The position numbers and the translations under genes are program-made. From positions 1 through 44,905 of the forward strand of contig NZ_BJDO01000019.1 of the NCBI RefSeq assembly GCF_005405185.1: a DNA stretch of 44,905 nt, read 5' to 3'. Below, one piece after another: positions 3,766 through 11,423 of the stretch (its first letter is position 1; each line of letters starts with the position of its first letter). This stretch comes from Secundilactobacillus hailunensis (GTDB taxonomy: Bacteria; Bacillota; Bacilli; Lactobacillales; Lactobacillaceae). Below the pieces are notes generated by a model, which was not told where the DNA came from, made no database searches, and saw only the letters and a program-made list of their open reading frames with translations.

Positions 3766-4030
3766 ATAAAAAGTCCCTGCATTGCATAATATATGCAACA
3801 CAGGGACGATTGGTTAACCGTGGTACCACCCAGATTACTAGTCAATGAACTAGTCTCTTGAACACAGATAATGTTCGGGGTTATATCGTATCCTCACGAA
3901 TTATTGGCTTTCACCGCAAATTAAACTCCGAGCTCATCTTCTGCATCATTCAATCACCCGTTCTCACCAACCGGGGCTCTCTTGAAATTAAAGGGTGCGT
4001 ACTCTTCTCATCAACGTTCCATTTTTTAAT
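3766..4030 (-). ncRNA. T-box riboswitch, methionine specifier
   Basis: On the minus strand the conserved T-box (TGGGTGGTACCACGG) occupies 3818-3832. It is followed by a terminator hairpin (GTCCCTG...CAGGGAC, 3773-3807) and a T-run. The stem I region contains the AG-rich bulge elements and, in the specifier loop context GAAG-ATG-A, an ATG codon (complement of 3935-3937). Uncharged tRNA-Met should stabilise the antiterminator and turn on the panE-like/metQNI operon. The specifier fits the transport function downstream. Leader ends are approximate. Confidence 0.92.
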
Positions 4031-4038
4031 ATGGTTGA

Positions 4039-4067
4039 ATACTAGCAGGTAATGATTAAATTGTCAA
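4039..4067 (-). promoter_or_regulatory. Promoter of the Met T-box operon
   Basis: On the minus strand a consensus -35 TTGACA (complement of 4062-4067) and -10 TAGTAT (complement of 4039-4044) are separated by exactly 17 bases. Transcription would start about 10 bases before the T-box leader. Confidence 0.85.
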
Positions 4068-4080
4068 ATGGGTTTTAAGC

Positions 4081-4266
4081 TTCTGATTACCTGGTGTATC
4101 GGAATAATATAGTAGAAAACGTTAAAAAGAAAAAATTAAAAAACGAATTCTAAAATGAGAATTATCACATTATTTCTCATAAAGTTAAATTAATTTTGGG
4201 GCAGGTTTTGTCGCGGATTAACGTACTTTAAACACTATTTTTGAAAATCAATGTATTAAAAAAGGT
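4081..4266. other. AT-rich divergent intergenic segment with an imperfect palindrome
   Basis: No gene is visible between the two divergent promoters. The one structured element is 4155-4180, where ATGAGAA and TTCTCAT flank a 12-base AT-rich centre. It could be an operator for either operon or a chance match. No known box is matched convincingly. Confidence 0.35.
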
Positions 4267-4295
4267 TTGACAAGTTCAACTGCAAACGTTATATT
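4267..4295 (+). promoter_or_regulatory. Promoter of the cysteine operon leader
   Basis: Consensus -35 TTGACA (4267-4272) and -10 TATATT (4290-4295) are separated by 17 bases. The first downstream SD and ATG belong to the leader peptide, which begins about 27 bases after the predicted start of transcription. Confidence 0.85.
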
Positions 4296-4328
4296 GAACC
4301 CAAGTTATAAATCGAAGGAGGATCAACA

Positions 4329-4409
4329 ATGACAACCCGTTCATTTAAAGTTCAAATGCAAAATACTTGTTGTCAAACGTCGCGCGAACTGCGATGTTTG
4401 GCCTGTTAA
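4329..4409 (+). CDS. Cys-rich leader peptide of the cysK-cgl-cysE operon
   Basis: A 26-codon ORF has an excellent SD (AAGGAGG, 4315-4321) seven bases before its ATG. Four of 26 codons are Cys, all TGT: an adjacent pair at codons 14-15, one at 23 and one as the last sense codon before TAA. The C-terminus reads RELRCLAC. It lies between a consensus promoter and an intrinsic terminator, ahead of cysteine biosynthesis genes. This is the classical layout of transcription attenuation by ribosome position on Cys codons. Function is inferred from layout; I cannot draw a unique antiterminator. Confidence 0.78.
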   Translation: MTTRSFKVQMQNTCCQTSRELRCLAC

Positions 4410-4414
4410 GCATT

Positions 4415-4473
4415 GACTTTTAAAGGGGTATTGTTGATTTAACCTAAAAGTCTCTGTTCCAGGTGGAACGGAG
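4415..4473 (+). promoter_or_regulatory. Two leader hairpins between leader peptide and terminator
   Basis: Hairpin 1 pairs GACTTTTA (4415-4422) with TAAAAGTC (4445-4452) and begins five bases after the leader stop, so a ribosome on the last Cys codons would cover its 5' arm. Hairpin 2 pairs CTCTGTTCC (4452-4460) with GGAACGGAG (4465-4473), with one wobble pair. Both probably take part in the attenuation switch. Confidence 0.6.
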
Positions 4474-4477
4474 TCGA

Positions 4478-4521
4478 AGAGCGCGCAAATTCTGAAATAT
4501 GGGATTTGGCGCTCTTTTTTT
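4478..4521 (+). terminator. Attenuator terminator of the cysteine operon
   Basis: AGAGCGC (4478-4484) pairs with GCGCTCT (4509-4515). The stem continues with CAAATTC against GGATTTG, and a run of seven T follows. It lies in the leader, more than 200 bases before cysK, so it must be read through for operon expression. Confidence 0.88.
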
Positions 4522-4526
4522 GTAGC

Positions 4527-4667
4527 AGAGCGTGGAACAAAACGGGTTGATGGTGGCGTATAAGGGCGGACTGGGAAAAATCCCGGTTTTGGATTTATCC
4601 CAGTCCGCCCTTCCGCATAACCATCAGTTTTGTGGAACGCGTTTAGGCGTGGTGGCCTAAAAAGGCC
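4527..4667. repeat. Palindromic intergenic element, copy 1
   Basis: A nested palindrome of about 140 bases carries a perfect 15-bp inner stem (4562-4576 with 4598-4612) and outer pairs (GATGGT/ACCATC, CAAAAC/GTTTTG). Its 3' end has a small hairpin (GGCCTAAAAAGGCC, 4654-4667). The last 32 bases (4633-4664) match 31972-32003 at 24 of 32 positions, so this belongs to a dispersed family. It sits in the cysK leader after the attenuator. No ORF is supported in it. Confidence 0.7.
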
Positions 4668-4744
4668 CTACATCTCAAGAAAATCAACAATCACCCCAAC
4701 CAAGATCACCAAGCACAAACAATCAAGGAAGGGGACAACTCAAA

Positions 4745-5665
4745 ATGCTAATTAAAAAAATCCAGCAGCTCATCGGCAACACGCCGTTGATCGACCTGCA
4801 AATCAACATTCCGAAACAGTCGCACATTTACGCCAAACTAGAAATGTTCAATCCGGGAGGCAGCATCAAAGATCGGCTAGGCCAGTACATGATTCAAGAT
4901 GGTATCGACAAGGGTAAGATCAACGCGACGACTACCATCATTGAACCAACCGCTGGCAACACCGGTATTGGCGTTGCACTGGCGACTCAGGAACATCATT
5001 TACCAACGATTTTAGTCGTACCAGAAAAATTCAGTTACGAAAAGCAGACGCTCATGAAGGCGTTGGGGGCCAAACTGATCAATACGTCGTCTGAGGATGG
5101 CATCAAAGGGGCAATTAAAAAAGCCCGAGAGATAGCTGCTAAAACACCTAACAGTTACGTGCCGATGCAGTTTGAAAATCCGGCCAACCCAGCTGCTTAT
5201 TACCACACCTTAGCGCCTGAGTTGATTCAAGATCTCGACCAGCCCATCGATGCGTTCGTTGCTGGTGCCGGTTCTGGCGGCACCTTTGCCGGAATTACGC
5301 AGTATCTAAAAGAACAAAATCCTGCTACTCAGTCGATCGTCGTTGAACCAGAGGGCTCGATTCTCAATGGCGGACCGGAACATCCGCACAAAACGGAAGG
5401 TATCGGAGTTGAGTTCATTCCACCATTTTTCAAAAACGTGCAGATCGACCAAACACTGACGATCTCGGATGCGGACGCTTTTAAGTACGTTCGGCAAATG
5501 GCTGCCCAGCAAGGATTATTTATCGGCAGTTCTTCCGGTGCGGCACTGGCGGCTAGCTTAAAGGTGGCGGAACAACTACCCGAAAATAGTACGATCGTAA
5601 CGGTCTTTCCCGACAGTTCAGAGCGGTATATGAGCGAAAATATTTATCAAAAACCACAAAATTAA
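4745..5665 (+). CDS. cysK: Cysteine synthase / O-acetylserine-dependent cystathionine beta-synthase (CysK family)
   Basis: The 306-residue PLP enzyme adds sulfide or homocysteine to O-acetylserine or serine. The PLP-binding Lys is K42 in NPGGSIKD. The substrate loop reads TAGNTG (69-74), and the phosphate-binding Gly loop is [10 protein letters not shown] at about 175-184. A Ser-rich GSSSGAA near residue 260 contacts the PLP ring. The cluster with a cystathionine lyase and serine acetyltransferase matches the cysK2/cbs-ctl-cysE clusters known in lactobacilli, which make cysteine from methionine-derived homocysteine. CysK or CBS/MccA activity cannot be separated by eye. SD AAGGAAGGGG precedes the ATG. 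Confidence 0.85.
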
Positions 5666-5680
5666 AGAGGAGATTTTAAA

Positions 5681-6868
5681 ATGAAATTTGAAACGAAACT
5701 ATTACACGGCGGCATTAGCGAAGATCCTTATACGGGCGCAACTTCCATTCCCATTTACATGGCATCCACGTTCCATCAAACCAAGATTGGGGAATCTAAG
5801 TACGAATATTCCCGTTCTGGCAACCCCACTCGTGAAGCCGTTGAAGCCCTGATTGCGGACCTTGAAGGCGGCACACAAGGCTTCGCGTTTGCGTCCGGTT
5901 CAGCTGCCATTGATACGGTCTTTTCAATGTTTAGCGCAGGCGATGATTTCATCGTCGGCAATGACGTTTACGGCGGGACGTTCCGCCTAATTAACACGGT
6001 ATTGAAACGGTTTGGGATGACCTTCACAGTTGTTGATACCCGGGATCTGGCGGCCGTTGAAGCGGCGATTAAGCCTACTACCAAAGCCATTTACCTAGAA
6101 ACACCGACTAATCCCTTGCTACGGGTGACAGATATCAAAGCCGTTGCTGACCTGGCTCGTGCCCATGGGTTACTGAGCATCATCGACAACACGTTCAGCT
6201 CACCTTACGTTCAGCGACCATTGGAATTAGGCGTGGACATCGTGTTACATTCAGCTTCGAAATACCTGGGCGGCCATTCCGATGTGATTGCTGGAGTAAT
6301 CGTTACGAAGGATGCCAAGTTGGGTGACAAAATCGGCTATCTGCAAAATGCCATTGGTGGTATTTTGGCACCGCAGGAAAGTTGGTTACTGCAACGGGGA
6401 ATGAAGACGCTGGCGATTCGGATGCAGGCGCATTTAGCCAATGCCCAGACCGTTTTTAATTACCTTTCAGATCAACCGGCAGTGGCTAAAATCTACTATC
6501 CGGGCGATCCGAACAACCCAGATTATGCGGTTGCTAAAAAACAAATGCATCACGGTTTTGGTGCCATGATCTCCTTTGAATTGCAGCCGGGACTTGACCC
6601 TAAAAAGTTCGTGGAAAATCTCAAAGTGATCACCTTGGCAGAAAGTCTGGGGGCGCTGGAATCCTTGATTGAGATTCCAGCACTCATGACTCACGGGGCT
6701 ATTCCGCGTGATATTCGCCTAAAGGACGGTATTAAAGATGAATTGATTCGACTTTCTGTGGGTATCGAGGATGAAAAGGACTTACTGGCTGATCTAGACC
6801 GCGGCTTCCAAGCCGTACAAGGGAGTACTAACCATGTGGCAGACACCGCGAGCCATCCTCAAGCGTGA
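5681..6868 (+). CDS. Cystathionine gamma-lyase / gamma-synthase family PLP enzyme
   Basis: This 395-residue member of the Cys/Met metabolism PLP family has its Schiff-base Lys at K194 ([11 protein letters not shown]). The YSRSGNPT stretch near 44-50 and the [10 protein letters not shown] segment near the C-terminus are typical of cystathionine lyases and synthases. In this operon a lyase role is most likely: cystathionine to cysteine, 2-oxobutyrate and ammonia. It starts 15 bases after cysK with SD AGAGGAGA and overlaps cysE by 35 bases. A cystathionine gamma-synthase or beta-lyase role cannot be excluded. Confidence 0.85.
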
Positions 6869-7400
6869 TCCAGCAGCCCATAGTCTACTGGAAGTCATCC
6901 TGACTTATCCCGGCGTTCGGGCACTATTTTGGCACCGGATTGCCCATTTTCTAGATGGCCTGCATCACTATGTTTTAGCGGCTATGCTGAGCCAGCACGC
7001 GGCTAAAGTCACGGGAATCGCCATTGATCCAGCTGCTCAGATTGGCAAACGGGTCTTTATTGACCATGGCGTTGGCGTTGTAATTGGCGCTACTGCCATC
7101 GTTGAGGATGATGTCACTATTTTGCATGGGGTCACATTAGGTGCACGGAACGGTGTGAAAAATGGTCGGCGCCATCCAATTGTTAAGCGTGGTGCCTTTA
7201 TCGGAGCCAACGCACAGTTGTTAGGCCCAATTGTAATTGGAGAAGGGGCTAAGATCGGTGCTGGGGCGGTCGTTTTGAATGATGTACCAGCACACTGCAC
7301 GGCAGTCGGCAATCCAGCCCGATTGATTCGGAAAAAGCTGACGGTAATGCCTTTGCCCTTAAAGACTGACGAAAAACAGGTAAACTCGAATCGTGCGTAA
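6834..7400 (+). CDS. cysE: Serine O-acetyltransferase CysE
   Basis: The 188-residue enzyme acetylates serine to O-acetylserine, the substrate of the first gene of the operon. A short helical N-terminal region precedes the left-handed hexapeptide-repeat domain (from about residue 65). Active-site His and Asp candidates lie in [11 protein letters not shown] and ILHGVTLG, and NPAR marks the repeat end. The protein is short for CysE (E. coli about 270), as in other Gram-positive short forms. The ATG has SD AAGGGAG eight bases upstream, inside the end of the preceding gene. No clear terminator follows before 7440. Confidence 0.9.
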
Positions 7401-7442
7401 CAACGCGTATCATTGAAAACTCATAAAATTTTAATCTTAACA

Positions 7443-7470
7443 TTGACACTATTTAGATACTGTTTAATAA
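7443..7470 (+). promoter_or_regulatory. Promoter of the D-2-hydroxyacid dehydrogenase gene
   Basis: -35 TTGACA (7443-7448) and -10 TAATAA (7465-7470) have 16-base spacing. The layout and several flanking bases recur at 8676-8703. The 5' UTR of about 115 bases holds a hairpin (AAACAG 7503-7508 with CTGTTT 7534-7539, plus inner AAGG/CCTT) of unknown role. Confidence 0.65.
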
Positions 7471-7592
7471 TGATAATTAAAAGTTATATGTTATCAATGC
7501 ATAAACAGGCCTAAGGGGCTATTCCTTCTGGTTCTGTTTGTAGACTGGAAGAAATTCATTTGATTAAATATTGAGTAGGGGAATGGTATATT

Positions 7593-8585
7593 ATGACGAA
7601 GATTTTAGCTTATCACGTACGAGAAGATGAACAGCCATTTATTGATCAATGGTCTAAAGAACATGGCGTTCAGGTTGACAGTATGTCAGAAGAATTACAT
7701 GACGAAACGGTCGAGAAGGCCAAGGGTTATGATGGTGTTAATTTTAAACAACGGTCCGTTATTAGCCAAAGCCCAGCGTTTTATCAGAAATTAGCCAGCT
7801 ATGGCATCACGCAATTATCTGCTCGTTCTGCTGGTATTGATACGGTGAATTTAAAGTGGGCGAAAGCCAATCATCTGCGGTTGACTAATGTGCCGTCATA
7901 TTCGCCAGAAGCGGTAGCAGAAATGGTGTTAACACAAACTATGCAGCTGATTCGCCACATTCCTCAATTCAATGACCGACTTAGCGACAACAATTACGTT
8001 GTGCTGGGTCTGCGTTCTACTGAACTGACGGAATTAACGGTAGGAATCATTGGCGTTGGCCGAATCGGCGGTAAGCTCGCACGAATTTTTCACGCGCTGG
8101 GTGCAACGGTGATTGGCAATGATTTGCGGGCACCTCGCGAAGATTTACGTGGCATTATGACTTATGTTAGCAAAGAAGAACTCTATAAGCGCGCAGATAT
8201 TATTTCCGTGCACGTTTGGGGCGGCGATGACAACTTTCATTTGATCAACGACAAAGCTTTTGCCCAAATGAAACCAACCGCTTACTTTATTAATGATTCT
8301 CGTGGCCCCGTTGTCGATACGCAAGCGTTGATTAGTGCACTGAATAACCAGCAAATTGCAGGCGCTGCACTCGACGTTGTGGAAGATGAAACTAAAATCT
8401 TCAATCAGAAATTCGATGGTGCAACGCCAATTGATCACTATAATCAACTGAAACAAATGACTAATGTTTTACTGACGCCTCATGTGGCATTTTTCACTGA
8501 CCATGCGGTTAAGAACATGGTGACGCAATCGCTGGATGATACATTGGCGATTATTACTGGTGGAAAGAGTGAGCATGAGTTTTAG
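7593..8585 (+). CDS. D-2-hydroxyacid dehydrogenase (D-lactate / D-hydroxyisocaproate dehydrogenase type)
   Basis: The 330-residue NAD-dependent enzyme interconverts 2-oxo acids and D-2-hydroxy acids. The nucleotide-binding motif is GVGRIG (154-159). The catalytic triad is visible: R237 (DSRGPV), E264 (DVVEDE) and H297 (TPHVAF). The RSAGID motif at 79-83 is typical of the D-LDH/D-HicDH branch. It is monocistronic, between the cysteine operon and a Met T-box cluster, so its substrate may be a sulfur 2-oxo acid rather than pyruvate; that is inference. SD AGGGGAATGG precedes the ATG. Confidence 0.85.
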   Translation: MTKILAYHVREDEQPFIDQWSKEHGVQVDSMSEELHDETVEKAKGYDGVNFKQRSVISQSPAFYQKLASYGITQLSARSAGIDTVNLKWAKANHLRLTNVPSYSPEAVAEMVLTQTMQLIRHIPQFNDRLSDNNYVVLGLRSTELTELTVGIIGVGRIGGKLARIFHALGATVIGNDLRAPREDLRGIMTYVSKEELYKRADIISVHVWGGDDNFHLINDKAFAQMKPTAYFINDSRGPVVDTQALISALNNQQIAGAALDVVEDETKIFNQKFDGATPIDHYNQLKQMTNVLLTPHVAFFTDHAVKNMVTQSLDDTLAIITGGKSEHEF

Positions 8586-8675
8586 AGCAAGGCGTAAAGC
8601 GTATTTTAATTGAATTTGAGAACGTTCTGTTGAATAACATTTTCATCAAATTCCAACTTAATTTTAATTTTTATC

Positions 8676-8703
8676 TTGACACTGATTGTTACATGCTTAA
8701 TAA
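8676..8703 (+). promoter_or_regulatory. Promoter of the second T-box cluster
   Basis: -35 TTGACA (8676-8681) and -10 TAATAA (8698-8703) have 16-base spacing. TTGACACT and TTAATAAT are shared with the promoter at 7443. The segment 8586-8675 between the preceding gene and this promoter is AT-rich and shows nothing else. Confidence 0.65.
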
Positions 8704-8731
8704 TAATCACAACTTAAATCAAACAAAAACG

Positions 8732-9005
8732 TGAGGATGAGTAAATCTATTTGTCAGTCATAGAGAGTCGCTGAGTTGATGAAAAGCGATACTGACAATA
8801 GATTGAAGATGGTCCGAGTAAAGTTGATTCGGCAAACAATCGTGAACTGAATTCGGGAACGCCCGTTATAGCGGTAGGGTATTTGATTTTTATCATGTAC
8901 CTGAAGAGTCATAAATGAGTAAATTTATGAAATTAAGGTGGTACCGCGAAAGAGCGCTTTCGTCCTTTTCTACAATAAGTAGATTAAGGCGAAAGCGCTC
9001 TTTCT
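8732..9005 (+). ncRNA. T-box riboswitch, probable methionine specifier
   Basis: The T-box motif AAGGTGGTACCGCG occupies 8935-8948. A terminator follows (AAAGAGCGCTTTCG 8949-8962 with its complement 8990-9003). Upstream, a stem I-like region with AGAGAG and GTGAGGATGAG elements leads to GAAG-ATG-G, placing ATG (8809-8811) as specifier. The flanking GAAGATG is identical to that of the metQNI T-box. The downstream amino-acid importer and sulfur-type PLP enzyme fit Met starvation control. Leader ends are approximate. Confidence 0.88.
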
Positions 9006-9106
9006 GTCTGTTAGGAGTGATCAAGTTTTTTAATAAACCGTTTGATGATAGTCAATACGCTGACAATTAATATTAACTGATGAACACATGAAAGGGGTAT
9101 TCAATT

Positions 9107-9907
9107 ATGAAAAAGCATCGTTATGGATTATGGACCATAGTTATTATCGTTATCATCGCAATTATTGGTGGAGCGGCCTGGTTTAATGGCAATAAAAAGG
9201 CTAGTTCGTCAACCAAGCCAACAATTAACATCGCTACTGCAGGAACTATTTTTCCAAATGCTTATCGGCAAAATCATAAACTGGTCGGGTATGACGTGGA
9301 TGTTGCAAAGGCTGTTGCAAAAGCAGAAGGATACAAGACTAAATTCACCATTACTGATTTTGACGGTATTTTCGGTCAGGTAGACAGCGGTCGGGTGGAT
9401 ACCGTTGCCAATGATATTGGGGCCACGCCAGAAAGAAAACAAAAGTACATTTTCACTACACCATATAACAATGAAACAACCAATATCGCCGCTAAAAAGG
9501 GTACCAGTTATCAAAATTTAAAGGATTTTGAAGGTAAGACGGTTGCGACAAGTGGTGCAGGTAATAACTTTATCACTACACTTAAAAAGTATGATCCAAA
9601 AATTAAGATCAAAGTTTACGAAACCCGTGATCAAGCCACTCAAGCACTCATTACTGGCCGGGTGGATGGGCTGTTATATTCACGGGCGACACTGAGCGCC
9701 ATTATTAAAAAACAAAACCTGAATTGGCATATTGTGAAAGATAGTGCTGGGCAAGCCTTAGTTGCTTATCCATTTAAAAAAGATGCTAATGGTAAAAAGT
9801 TACGTAAAGTCTTCAACAAAGGCCTTGCCAAGATTACTAAAAATGGCACTTTGAATAAAATTTCAAATAAGTACTTTGGTTACGACATTACAAGTCAAAT
9901 TAAATAA
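9107..9907 (+). CDS. Amino-acid ABC transporter substrate-binding protein, N-terminally membrane-anchored
   Basis: The 266-residue protein has the family 3 (polar amino acid / cystine type) binding fold: a mature start at TINIATAG, then YDVDVAKAVAK, FDGIFGQVDSGRVD and the hinge segment RDQATQALITGRVD. The N-terminus is a single hydrophobic helix (about residues 9-27) with no Cys and no lipobox. It is thus probably a membrane-tethered protein rather than a lipoprotein, which is unusual for Gram-positive binding proteins. Permease and ATPase follow directly. Ligand is unknown; the Met T-box suggests methionine, cystine or a sulfur derivative. SD GAAAGGGG. Confidence 0.85.
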   Translation: MKKHRYGLWTIVIIVIIAIIGGAAWFNGNKKASSSTKPTINIATAGTIFPNAYRQNHKLVGYDVDVAKAVAKAEGYKTKFTITDFDGIFGQVDSGRVDTVANDIGATPERKQKYIFTTPYNNETTNIAAKKGTSYQNLKDFEGKTVATSGAGNNFITTLKKYDPKIKIKVYETRDQATQALITGRVDGLLYSRATLSAIIKKQNLNWHIVKDSAGQALVAYPFKKDANGKKLRKVFNKGLAKITKNGTLNKISNKYFGYDITSQIK

Positions 9908-9922
9908 GGAGACCGGATAGAT

Positions 9923-10642
9923 ATGACGTTTAGTTGGACTTATTTTATACATTTATTTCCACAGTTAATTAAGTACATTCCATTGACCCTGTTCATGGCG
10001 GTTATTGCGATGCTAATTGCAGTGGTGGCTGGCAGTTTATTAACTTTAGTACAACTTTATGCGGCTAAACCATTTCAATTACTCGTCAAACTCTATGTTT
10101 CGTTCTTCCGGGGAGTTCCAACGCTGGTATTACTCTTCATTGTTTATTATGGGTTACCAGAGATTTCGCCAGCTTTTAAAGGCGTTTCGGCTTTAACCGC
10201 TGCGATTGCTGGACTGGGGGTCAAACAGTCAGCTTACCTGATTGAAATTTTCCGTGCTGGAATTGCTTCTGTGGATCAAGGGCAGATTGAAGCTGGTGAA
10301 GCGCTGAACTTTAGCTTTTTACGGATCTTTACGAGTATTGTTCTACCACAAGCGGCGTTGAATGCACTGCCAGCGACTGGTAATACGTTTGTCTCGTTAC
10401 TAAAGGAAACCTCGTTGGCTTTCACGTTAGGTGTGACCGAGATTTTTGCAGATGGTAAATTACTTGCCAGCGCTTCATTGCGATTCTTTGAAGTCTATGT
10501 AGCAGTTGGTTTGATTTATTGGATTATGATTATTATTTATACTTGGGCTCAAAAGCGCGTAGAAAATATACTCAGTAAGCCTTATAGGAGGGTGGTTGCC
10601 AATGTCATTGATTCAAGTCAGCAATCTAGCCGTGCAATTTAG
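9923..10642 (+). CDS. Amino-acid ABC transporter permease (HisM/TcyB family)
   Basis: This 239-residue inner-membrane permease has several hydrophobic helices. The N-terminal region YIPLTLFMAVIAML and the motif SFFRGVPTLVLLF are typical of polar amino-acid permeases. The EAA-type loop reads EAGEALNFSFLRIF near residue 125, followed by ALPATGNTFVSLLKETSLAF. It lies 15 bases after the binding protein gene and overlaps the ATPase gene by 41 bases. The importer probably contains two copies of this subunit. Confidence 0.87.
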   Translation: MTFSWTYFIHLFPQLIKYIPLTLFMAVIAMLIAVVAGSLLTLVQLYAAKPFQLLVKLYVSFFRGVPTLVLLFIVYYGLPEISPAFKGVSALTAAIAGLGVKQSAYLIEIFRAGIASVDQGQIEAGEALNFSFLRIFTSIVLPQAALNALPATGNTFVSLLKETSLAFTLGVTEIFADGKLLASASLRFFEVYVAVGLIYWIMIIIYTWAQKRVENILSKPYRRVVANVIDSSQQSSRAI

Positions 10643-11423
10643 CCGGCGTAAAGTTCTGAAAAATATTAACTTAACCTTAGAAAAAGGTAGCGTAACCGCA
10701 ATTGTGGGACCATCTGGTTCTGGCAAGACAACGTTACTTCGAACGATGAATTTGCTGCAATTGCCATCAGAAGGAACGGTTACTGTTGCTGGTGTAACGG
10801 TGGATGCCAAACATATTAGTAAAACGGATGTGCATAAAATCCGTAATCAGTCGACCATGGTCTTTCAGCAGTTTAATCTATTCAAAAATATGACGGCATT
10901 GGAAAACGTGATGTCACCATTGATTTACAACAAGCTTGCTGGATTTGATGAAGTTAAATCAACTGCATTGGGAGTGCTACGTAATTTTGGACTTGAATCG
11001 ATTGCTGATCAATATCCGGTGACGTTATCAGGTGGTCAGTCACAACGGGTATCAATTGCTAGAGCAATCGTTGCCAAACCCAAGGTCGTGTTATTTGATG
11101 AACCAACGTCAGCTTTAGATCCGGAAATGGTATCGGATGTTCTGACGACCATTGCTCAGCTTGCACAGCAGCATATCACAATGGTGATTGTTACCCATGA
11201 AATTGAATTTGCTCGTCAAATTGCGGATAATGTAATTTTTGTTGAAAACGGTGAAATATTAGCCCAAGGGCCAGCTAATCAAATTTTATCTACTGATGGC
11301 ACTGGTAGAATTGCAGATTTTGTTAACTCGCTAGAAAAGCGAGTGACAATTCCAAAGACACCGCGAGCAAATACTGGTGTGGTAGCGTCTCGTCTAAGAC
11401 TATTACAAAGTGGCACAAATTAA
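10602..11423 (+). CDS. Amino-acid ABC transporter ATPase
   Basis: The 273-residue ATPase has Walker A GPSGSGKT near residue 34, signature LSGGQSQRV near 136, Walker B VVLFDEPTSALDPE and the switch His in VTHE. I start it at ATG 10602 because SD GGAGGG (10587-10592) is correctly spaced; an in-frame TTG lies two codons earlier. The C-terminal 30 residues beyond the ABC core lack a NIL domain, unlike metN in this window. It powers the importer of the T-box cluster. Confidence 0.88.
   Translation: MSLIQVSNLAVQFSRRKVLKNINLTLEKGSVTAIVGPSGSGKTTLLRTMNLLQLPSEGTVTVAGVTVDAKHISKTDVHKIRNQSTMVFQQFNLFKNMTALENVMSPLIYNKLAGFDEVKSTALGVLRNFGLESIADQYPVTLSGGQSQRVSIARAIVAKPKVVLFDEPTSALDPEMVSDVLTTIAQLAQQHITMVIVTHEIEFARQIADNVIFVENGEILAQGPANQILSTDGTGRIADFVNSLEKRVTIPKTPRANTGVVASRLRLLQSGTN

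Follow-up and report, generated by a model that had tools for sequence, protein, structure and literature searches.

T-boxes are the usual device for the control of amino-acid genes in Lactobacillaceae. The cysK-cgl-cysE operon in the window analysed here (a stretch of 44,905 nucleotides from a genome of 2.7 Mb) is preceded by a short open reading frame (ORF) that contains four Cys codons. The elements of the locus, all on the forward strand, follow each other in the order promoter, Shine-Dalgarno sequence, 26-codon ORF, three hairpins, intrinsic terminator and cysK-cgl-cysE. The promoter (4267-4295) consists of a -35 box (TTGACA, 4267-4272), a 17-nt spacer and a -10 box (TATATT, 4290-4295), and matches the consensus at 11 of 12 positions. 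Matches of this type are not rarer in the region 4000-9200 than in shuffled sequences (9 found, 10.2 expected); comparable boxes are found 5' of the leaders in close relatives of the window. The leader ORF (MTTRSFKVQMQNTCCQTSRELRCLAC*) has a Shine-Dalgarno sequence AAGGAGG at 4315-4321, starts with ATG at 4329 and ends with the stop codon TAA at 4407-4409. Its TGT codons at 4368, 4371, 4395 and 4404 are codons 14, 15, 23 and 26. The consensus promoter, strong Shine-Dalgarno sequence, 26-codon ORF and four TGT codons given in a preliminary description of this DNA were all found at 4267-4409, and the terminator at 4476-4521, but the two hairpins counted there are three (P1, P2 and P3).

The three genes downstream all have open reading frames and encode a cysK-type cysteine synthase family protein (4745-5665; TIGR01136, 329.6 bits, not reaching the cut-off of 344), a cystathionine gamma-lyase/synthase family protein (cgl, 5681-6868; best models below their own cut-offs) and a serine O-acetyltransferase (cysE, 6834-7400; EpsC model above its cut-off). 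A leader ORF with its own ribosome-binding site thus stands before genes for the supply of its cognate amino acid, cysteine, both of which are features of attenuation. The 26-residue leader peptide had no match in NCBIfam. Between the leader terminator and cysK lies a long palindromic repeat (4536-4660), which resembles an inserted repeat element. Four other places in the genome have matches to parts of it, and in several Secundilactobacillus relatives the terminator is followed by related sequence.

A T-box or a metabolite riboswitch could control the operon independently of translation. Cys- and Met-specific T-boxes have been reported in L. paracasei, as described in PMC6004538, and the window itself holds a T-box 4 kb downstream of the leader. 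On the leader, however, no Rfam family reached its gathering score: neither a search of the whole window at gathering scores nor one of 4200-4800 with E up to 5 gave a T-box (RF00230) or riboswitch there, and all seven matches of the relaxed search lay on the palindrome (4551-4623). We consider this explanation extremely unlikely. The downstream T-box (RF00230, 107 bits) is located at 8723-8970, before an amino-acid ABC transporter (9107-11423). Its specifier, read by eye, may be either GAU or AUG after GAA.

Distribution of the leader and conservation of its Cys run

Relatives of the leader were found by tblastn with the leader peptide; 21 loci were aligned, and a covariance model built from them was run over 397 Lactobacillaceae genomes. 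Ninety model matches were examined, the 78 with E < 1e-3 and 12 weaker ones selected from a longer list. Twelve, with either no Cys leader or no cysteine gene, were dropped as chance matches (L124 and L127 with E < 1e-3, and ten of the weaker ones). The other 78 were kept as leaders, 75 of them distinct, from 68 genomes. They are followed by cysK (63), cgl (8), oligopeptide-binding-type proteins (5; one is SBP_bac_5 in Pfam and the others resemble it), an amino-acid ABC transporter (1) or the end of the contig (1). The leaders before oligopeptide-binding-type proteins have a CCCC run and occur in one genus (g22; L103, L106, L111 with two copies, and L115), one genome of which holds two copies; the cysteine regulon may here reach peptide uptake. 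Six genomes of another genus (g19; L091-L094, L100 and L102) have a CFC-type leader before a cgl without cysK, and two of the six also hold a CC-type copy before cysK (L068 and L077).

A survey of cysK genes with at least 60% identity gave at least 109 places in at least 107 Lactobacillaceae genomes, matches beyond those listed being weaker. Among the 109 listed places, 104 have a Cys-run leader ORF and a terminator 5' of cysK: 63 carry a leader found by the model, and 41 more have a Cys-run ORF, a Shine-Dalgarno sequence and a terminator according to scripts in which the Cys run was part of the search definition (46 listed places had no model leader; 45 were examined, and 41 passed). The other five comprise one contig that ends too soon (L239), one 3' fragment of an already counted gene, which was left out (G357:C441), and three places where a Cys run, P1 and a complementary terminator arm are seen by eye. 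Two of these three (L207 and L210) failed the script on the score of start and Shine-Dalgarno sequence, and in the third (L215) the run is situated at the border of the stretch examined. The preliminary description had held that a lack of conservation of the ORF or its Cys codons in relatives would speak against attenuation; the survey found the leader at nearly all listed cysK genes instead. Conservation of the ORF and its Cys run between genera shows that the leader is no chance reading frame.

A pattern search across named genomes yielded 19 stretches, from Secundilactobacillus, Lentilactobacillus and Lactiplantibacillus, and a plasmid of Limosilactobacillus fermentum carries a leader copy with CCC. 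A divergent form of the leader precedes a cysK-like gene in seven genomes of one genus (g83) of a second family of the order (f3), in which 395 genomes were searched; the matches L153-L159 in this family resemble plain terminators by eye, and the partial matches L160-L163 were left out of the count. In Enterococcus faecalis (L186, 2774-2911) an ORF with a CCC run, annotated as a hypothetical protein (WP_002355203.1), lies before cysK and is followed by a terminator-like hairpin; it is possibly a related attenuator with another pairing. The leader ORF is missing from the incomplete gene tables of four of the five plasmid records examined; the E. faecalis record lists an ORF in the corresponding position, as hypothetical.

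Across the family the Cys run takes the forms CC, CCC, CCCC or CFC, and in the 75 distinct leaders it is spelled in ten ways by exchange of TGT and TGC, as expected of conserved control codons; outside the run the leader peptide drifts between relatives. These observations bear on the possibility that the leader couples transcription to translation in general and is not specific for Cys. The logic of the RNA would indeed answer any stall at that spot. Against this, a Cys run with TGT/TGC exchanges is found at the foot of P1 at nearly every listed close cysK, a ubiquity counted with the Cys run as part of the search, and the genes downstream serve cysteine supply. A general coupling device is, in our view, highly unlikely.

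Hairpins, terminator and the end of the leader peptide

P1 is a hairpin of 12 bp within the ORF (4372-4383:4391-4402), which begins within the final codon of the Cys run and competes with the antiterminator described below. A hairpin of this type, with at least eight pairs in a 42-mer and starting within 5 nt, adjoins the Cys run in 56 of the 57 distinct 42-mers obtained from the 78 model leaders (the 41 later leaders were left out), with a mean z of -3.0 compared to shuffled sequences and z below -2 in 46. The sole failure, L125, results from misplacement of its CCSC run. P1 is followed by P2 (4415-4452; pairs 4415-4421:4446-4452 and 4424-4426:4443-4445), which caps the antiterminator, and by P3 (4452-4460:4465-4473), whose 3' arm doubles as antiterminator strand E. 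The intrinsic terminator (4476-4521) has its stem at 4476-4517 and its U-run at 4515-4521, and its 5' arm is antiterminator strand C. A simple terminator scan did not list 4476-4517; the stem carries a bulge. The region 4300-4525 folds with -80.5 kcal/mol compared to -51.7 kcal/mol (sd 4.3) for shuffled sequences (z -6.8; 0 of 200 as good), and a terminator stem followed by a U-run, the mark of an intrinsic terminator, is present in all 78 kept model leaders.

The consensus of P1 in the 21 aligned sequences has 11 pairs, three of which are changed on both sides (columns 13-37 in ten sequences, 14-36 in two and 21-29 in one). Columns 13:37 are G-C in 11 of the 21 and A-U in the other 10, and the residues encoded are R/S or Q/L accordingly. 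As their codons are partners in P1, residues 16 and 24 of the peptide covary (Q with L, R with S). Likewise, the 21 aligned sequences share the C-terminal motif R-C-[LS]-A-C because its codons form the 3' arm of P1.

Some leader peptides, such as TnaC and SpeFL, sense their ligands by arresting the ribosome. For the window leader the preliminary description had considered that the Cys directly before the stop might mean sensing of Cys by the nascent peptide or slow termination. In a sensing leader of this kind the peptide ending in RCLAC would arrest its own ribosome at the last Cys or the stop. The conservation of R-C-[LS]-A-C in the clade of the window and the Cys at the end of 47 of the 75 distinct model leaders could be read in this way. 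Over the wider set, however, a terminal Cys is present in just 40 of 102 distinct peptides, 23 have no Cys beyond the run, and others have LH, F, Y or unrelated tails at the C-terminus. Whether position 24 holds L or S depends on its partner codon in P1, and in L102 the reading frame is shifted after the Cys run while P1 is kept as an RNA hairpin. C-terminal residues conserved independently of RNA pairing, as in peptides of the TnaC or SpeFL type, were not found, and since a Cys before the stop is not general, nascent-peptide sensing is very unlikely; slow termination likewise finds no support. The frequency of Cys ends, the paired changes at residues 16 and 24 and the frameshift in L102 indicate that the conserved tail RELRCLAC is mainly a feature of the RNA. 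The leader alignment called for in the preliminary description thus bore out the Cys codons, with their synonymous TGT/TGC changes, and assigned RELRCLAC mainly to hairpin pairing. Given the drift of the tail, its P1-coupled changes and L102, selection seems to have acted on the Cys run at the level of its codons and on the tail at the level of RNA. Cys codons 23 and 26 probably arose as by-products of the pairing in P1 and the antiterminator, or else serve as minor sensors.

The antiterminator and the predicted position of the ribosome

The apical 5' side, loop and 3' side of P1 are complementary to the 3' arm of P3 and the 5' arm of the terminator. Together they can form a long nested hairpin capped by P2 (4380-4486), in which strand A (apical 5' side of P1) pairs with strand C (5' arm of the terminator) and strand B (3' side of P1) with strand E (3' arm of P3). 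It consists of the pairs 4382-4386:4482-4486 (GCGCG/CGCGC), 4389-4390:4478-4479 (CU/AG), 4392-4395:4473-4476 (CGAU/GUCG), 4396-4399:4466-4469 (GUUU/GAAC), 4401-4405:4460-4464 (GCCUG/CAGGU) and 4409-4412:4455-4458 (AGCA/UGUU), followed by P2. The A:C pairing of the window itself is short (5 + 2 bp). The antiterminator of L126 is stronger, with UUCGCGUUUUUAUGCG and CGUAUGAGGACGCGAA paired at 16 of 16 positions. An antiterminator formed from the 3' arm of P1 and P3 alone was rejected, this pairing being only the inner part of the longer helix.

Because the terminator arm slides between genera, co-variation of A and C was assessed by species-swap tests in place of a register-based count. With clusters of less than 72% identity, 36 in number, the own arms paired with -25.1 kcal/mol and swapped arms with -16.3 kcal/mol (z -13.2; 0 of 20,000 permutations), and in 34 of the 36 the own arm paired better than foreign arms did on average. 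The signal held at less than 65% identity (z -11.7, 28 clusters) and in a narrow A:C window (-12.9 compared to -9.0 kcal/mol, z -9.3, own arm better in 30 of 36). In an earlier test, which used 20 clusters, z was -7.5; the own arm ranked first among all partners in just 4 of the 20 and was no better than the foreign mean in 2. Chimeric folds gave 0.72 for own and 0.60 for swapped arms (1 of 20,000), and own A with own C compared to shuffled A gave a mean z of -3.2 (below -2 in 17 of 20 clusters and above -2 in 3). Control windows paired equally well in 103 of 2,800 cases, 75 of them in L119; in L119 and L132 the 5' end of the terminator was set too far out, which weakens their tests. Kinship or common base composition may contribute to the signal of the swap tests. 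The antiterminator is the element that the preliminary description had lacked, and its predicted, co-varying pairing supports the attenuation of cysK-cgl-cysE by a Cys leader peptide that was proposed there.

The same co-variation bears on a reading that takes the palindrome for an operator bound by a transcription factor and regards the ORF as incidental. A palindromic motif before these genes was proposed as regulatory by Liu et al. (2012), as quoted in PMC6004538. At the leaders, however, the palindrome is the terminator stem, with its U-run in every kept model leader, the 5' arm of this stem shows co-variation with the leader hairpin, and the Cys run is conserved. We regard an operator as highly improbable.

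In 119 leaders the median distance between the first Cys codon, counted from its first base, and the foot of the antiterminator is 14 nt (interquartile range 12-14; 102 of the 119 within 10-17 nt), and the median for the first 75 leaders was 13 nt. A ribosome whose A site holds a codon extends about 12 nt past the first base of that codon. The foot is thus predicted to lie about where a stalled ribosome would end. When RNA from 12 nt past the first base of the first Cys codon to the terminator loop was folded, representing the stall, the A:C pairing had a probability above 0.4 in 77 of 78 leaders (0.39 in the exception, L059) and formed in all 41 further leaders; in the truncated RNA without a ribosome the antiterminator was also preferred in 22 of 78. 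The antiterminator excludes both P1 and the terminator and is, in silico, freed by a ribosome on the Cys codons. The fold of the ribosome at the stop codon gave an antiterminator in 0 of 78 because that set-up leaves out both strands. In equilibrium folds of full-length leaders the switch between the two states is invisible: even under a stall the terminator has a probability above 0.5 in 77 of 78 leaders (mean 0.95), and antitermination must therefore be kinetic, set by timing.

Taken in this order, the leader would act as follows. With ample Cys-tRNA, the pioneer ribosome would pass the Cys run and reach the stop or leave, P1, P3 and the terminator would form, and transcription would stop before cysK. 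With scarce Cys-tRNA, the ribosome would pause once the run's first Cys codon has entered its A site, covering or breaking the base of P1 and leaving the RNA from about 12 nt downstream free. The freed apical 5' side, loop and 3' side of P1 could then pair with the 3' arm of P3 and the 5' arm of the terminator into a single long hairpin with P2 as its cap, and RNA polymerase would continue into cysK-cgl-cysE. The leader is very probably a cysteine-responsive, ribosome-mediated transcription attenuator of cysK-cgl-cysE. It has the ORF, the conserved Cys run, P1, the terminator, the co-varying antiterminator, the geometry and the cognate genes of this class, from which we infer stalling, timing and read-through; as judged by the features that can be assessed in silico, it works like such an attenuator and belongs to the class.

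A further pairing, P0, connects the ribosome-binding site and start of the leader (4322-4330, AUCAACAAU) with the loop of P2 (4430-4438, AUUGUUGAU). In 12 clusters of the RCxAC type the own partners paired with -11.1 kcal/mol and swapped partners with -7.4 kcal/mol (z -5.9; 0 of 20,000). The test gave z -5.2 for all 42 clusters (0 of 20,000) and only z -1.9 for the 30 divergent ones (551 of 20,000), and a control stretch after the terminator gave no signal (z +1.1). We tentatively suggest that P0 closes the leader to further ribosomes once P2 has been made. A family-wide Cys attenuator with two layers, an antiterminator set by the edge of the ribosome and a leader that closes itself through the P2 loop and ribosome-binding site, extending also to the second family, is a reading that we think possible but somewhat less likely than not. 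If it were true, only the pioneer ribosome would read the Cys codons, terminated leader RNAs would not be translated again and Cys-tRNA would not be wasted on them, and such an attenuator would control cysK-cgl-cysE in Lactobacillaceae in a place where one expects a T-box.

Comparison with known systems

Attenuators of the trp, his and leu type combine a leader ORF rich in codons for the end product, a protector hairpin, an antiterminator and an intrinsic terminator before the cognate operon. The Cys leader has the same layout of leader ORF, protector, antiterminator, terminator and cognate operon. It differs in its amino acid, cysteine, in the capping of the antiterminator by P2, and in the make-up of the freed strand, to which the apical 5' side and loop of the protector hairpin belong, so that the foot of the antiterminator starts at the leading edge of the ribosome. 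It is thus a Cys-sensing family within the known class of attenuation, of which we found no earlier description in the literature searched; no Cys leader peptide in Lactobacillaceae was recognised in this literature, which consisted mostly of papers accessible without subscription. Leader-peptide attenuation is suggested as a common control of cysK-cgl-cysE across Lactobacillaceae, and about a hundred distinct, co-varying leaders make a good set for the study of antiterminator evolution inside coding sequence.

An operon of the same type in L. paracasei is cysK2-ctl1-cysE2, whose versions found in this species are on plasmids, with cysK3-ctl2-cysE3 on the chromosome (PMC6200037). In strain FAM18149, cysK2-ctl1-cysE2 was reported to be about 8-fold higher expressed (log2 about 3.1) in Cys-deficient than in Met-deficient medium, with high coverage of the 5'-UTR, a terminator motif AAGGGCGCGAAA-N16-TTTCGCGCCCTT and no T-box, and its mechanism of control was termed "yet to be discovered" (PMC6004538). 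The cysK-ctl-cysE operon on L. paracasei plasmid pW56 has a leader (MSQSMFNAINCCCRTTRFWRCSAC) whose terminator stem is exactly this motif. PMC6004538 thus reports the terminator and the response to Cys, its main text having neither 'leader peptide' nor 'attenuat'. The leader offers a mechanism for the open question of the control of this operon by Cys, and the operon is tied to sulfur flavour in cheese.

Leaders with Cys codons have been described outside Lactobacillaceae as well. uORFC-8-2, before cysS in Rhodobacterales, is likewise a predicted Cys attenuator with a terminator, and its two tandem Cys codons are usually at positions 14-15, as in the window leader; compared by its description, it differs in belonging to alphaproteobacteria, in the gene controlled and in having two stems, the first of which contains the Cys codons (PMC8632094). 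Actinobacterial cys/cbs operons also have a leader ORF with a Cys run before cysteine genes, but the runs lie near the stop, and in Mycobacterium no conserved terminator hairpin was found, according to the account in PMC1262725. The leader peptides of hisS in bacilli are, as described in PMC2965389, likewise a case of attenuation replacing T-boxes in Firmicutes, differing from the Cys leader in that they concern histidine and genes of the hisS family.
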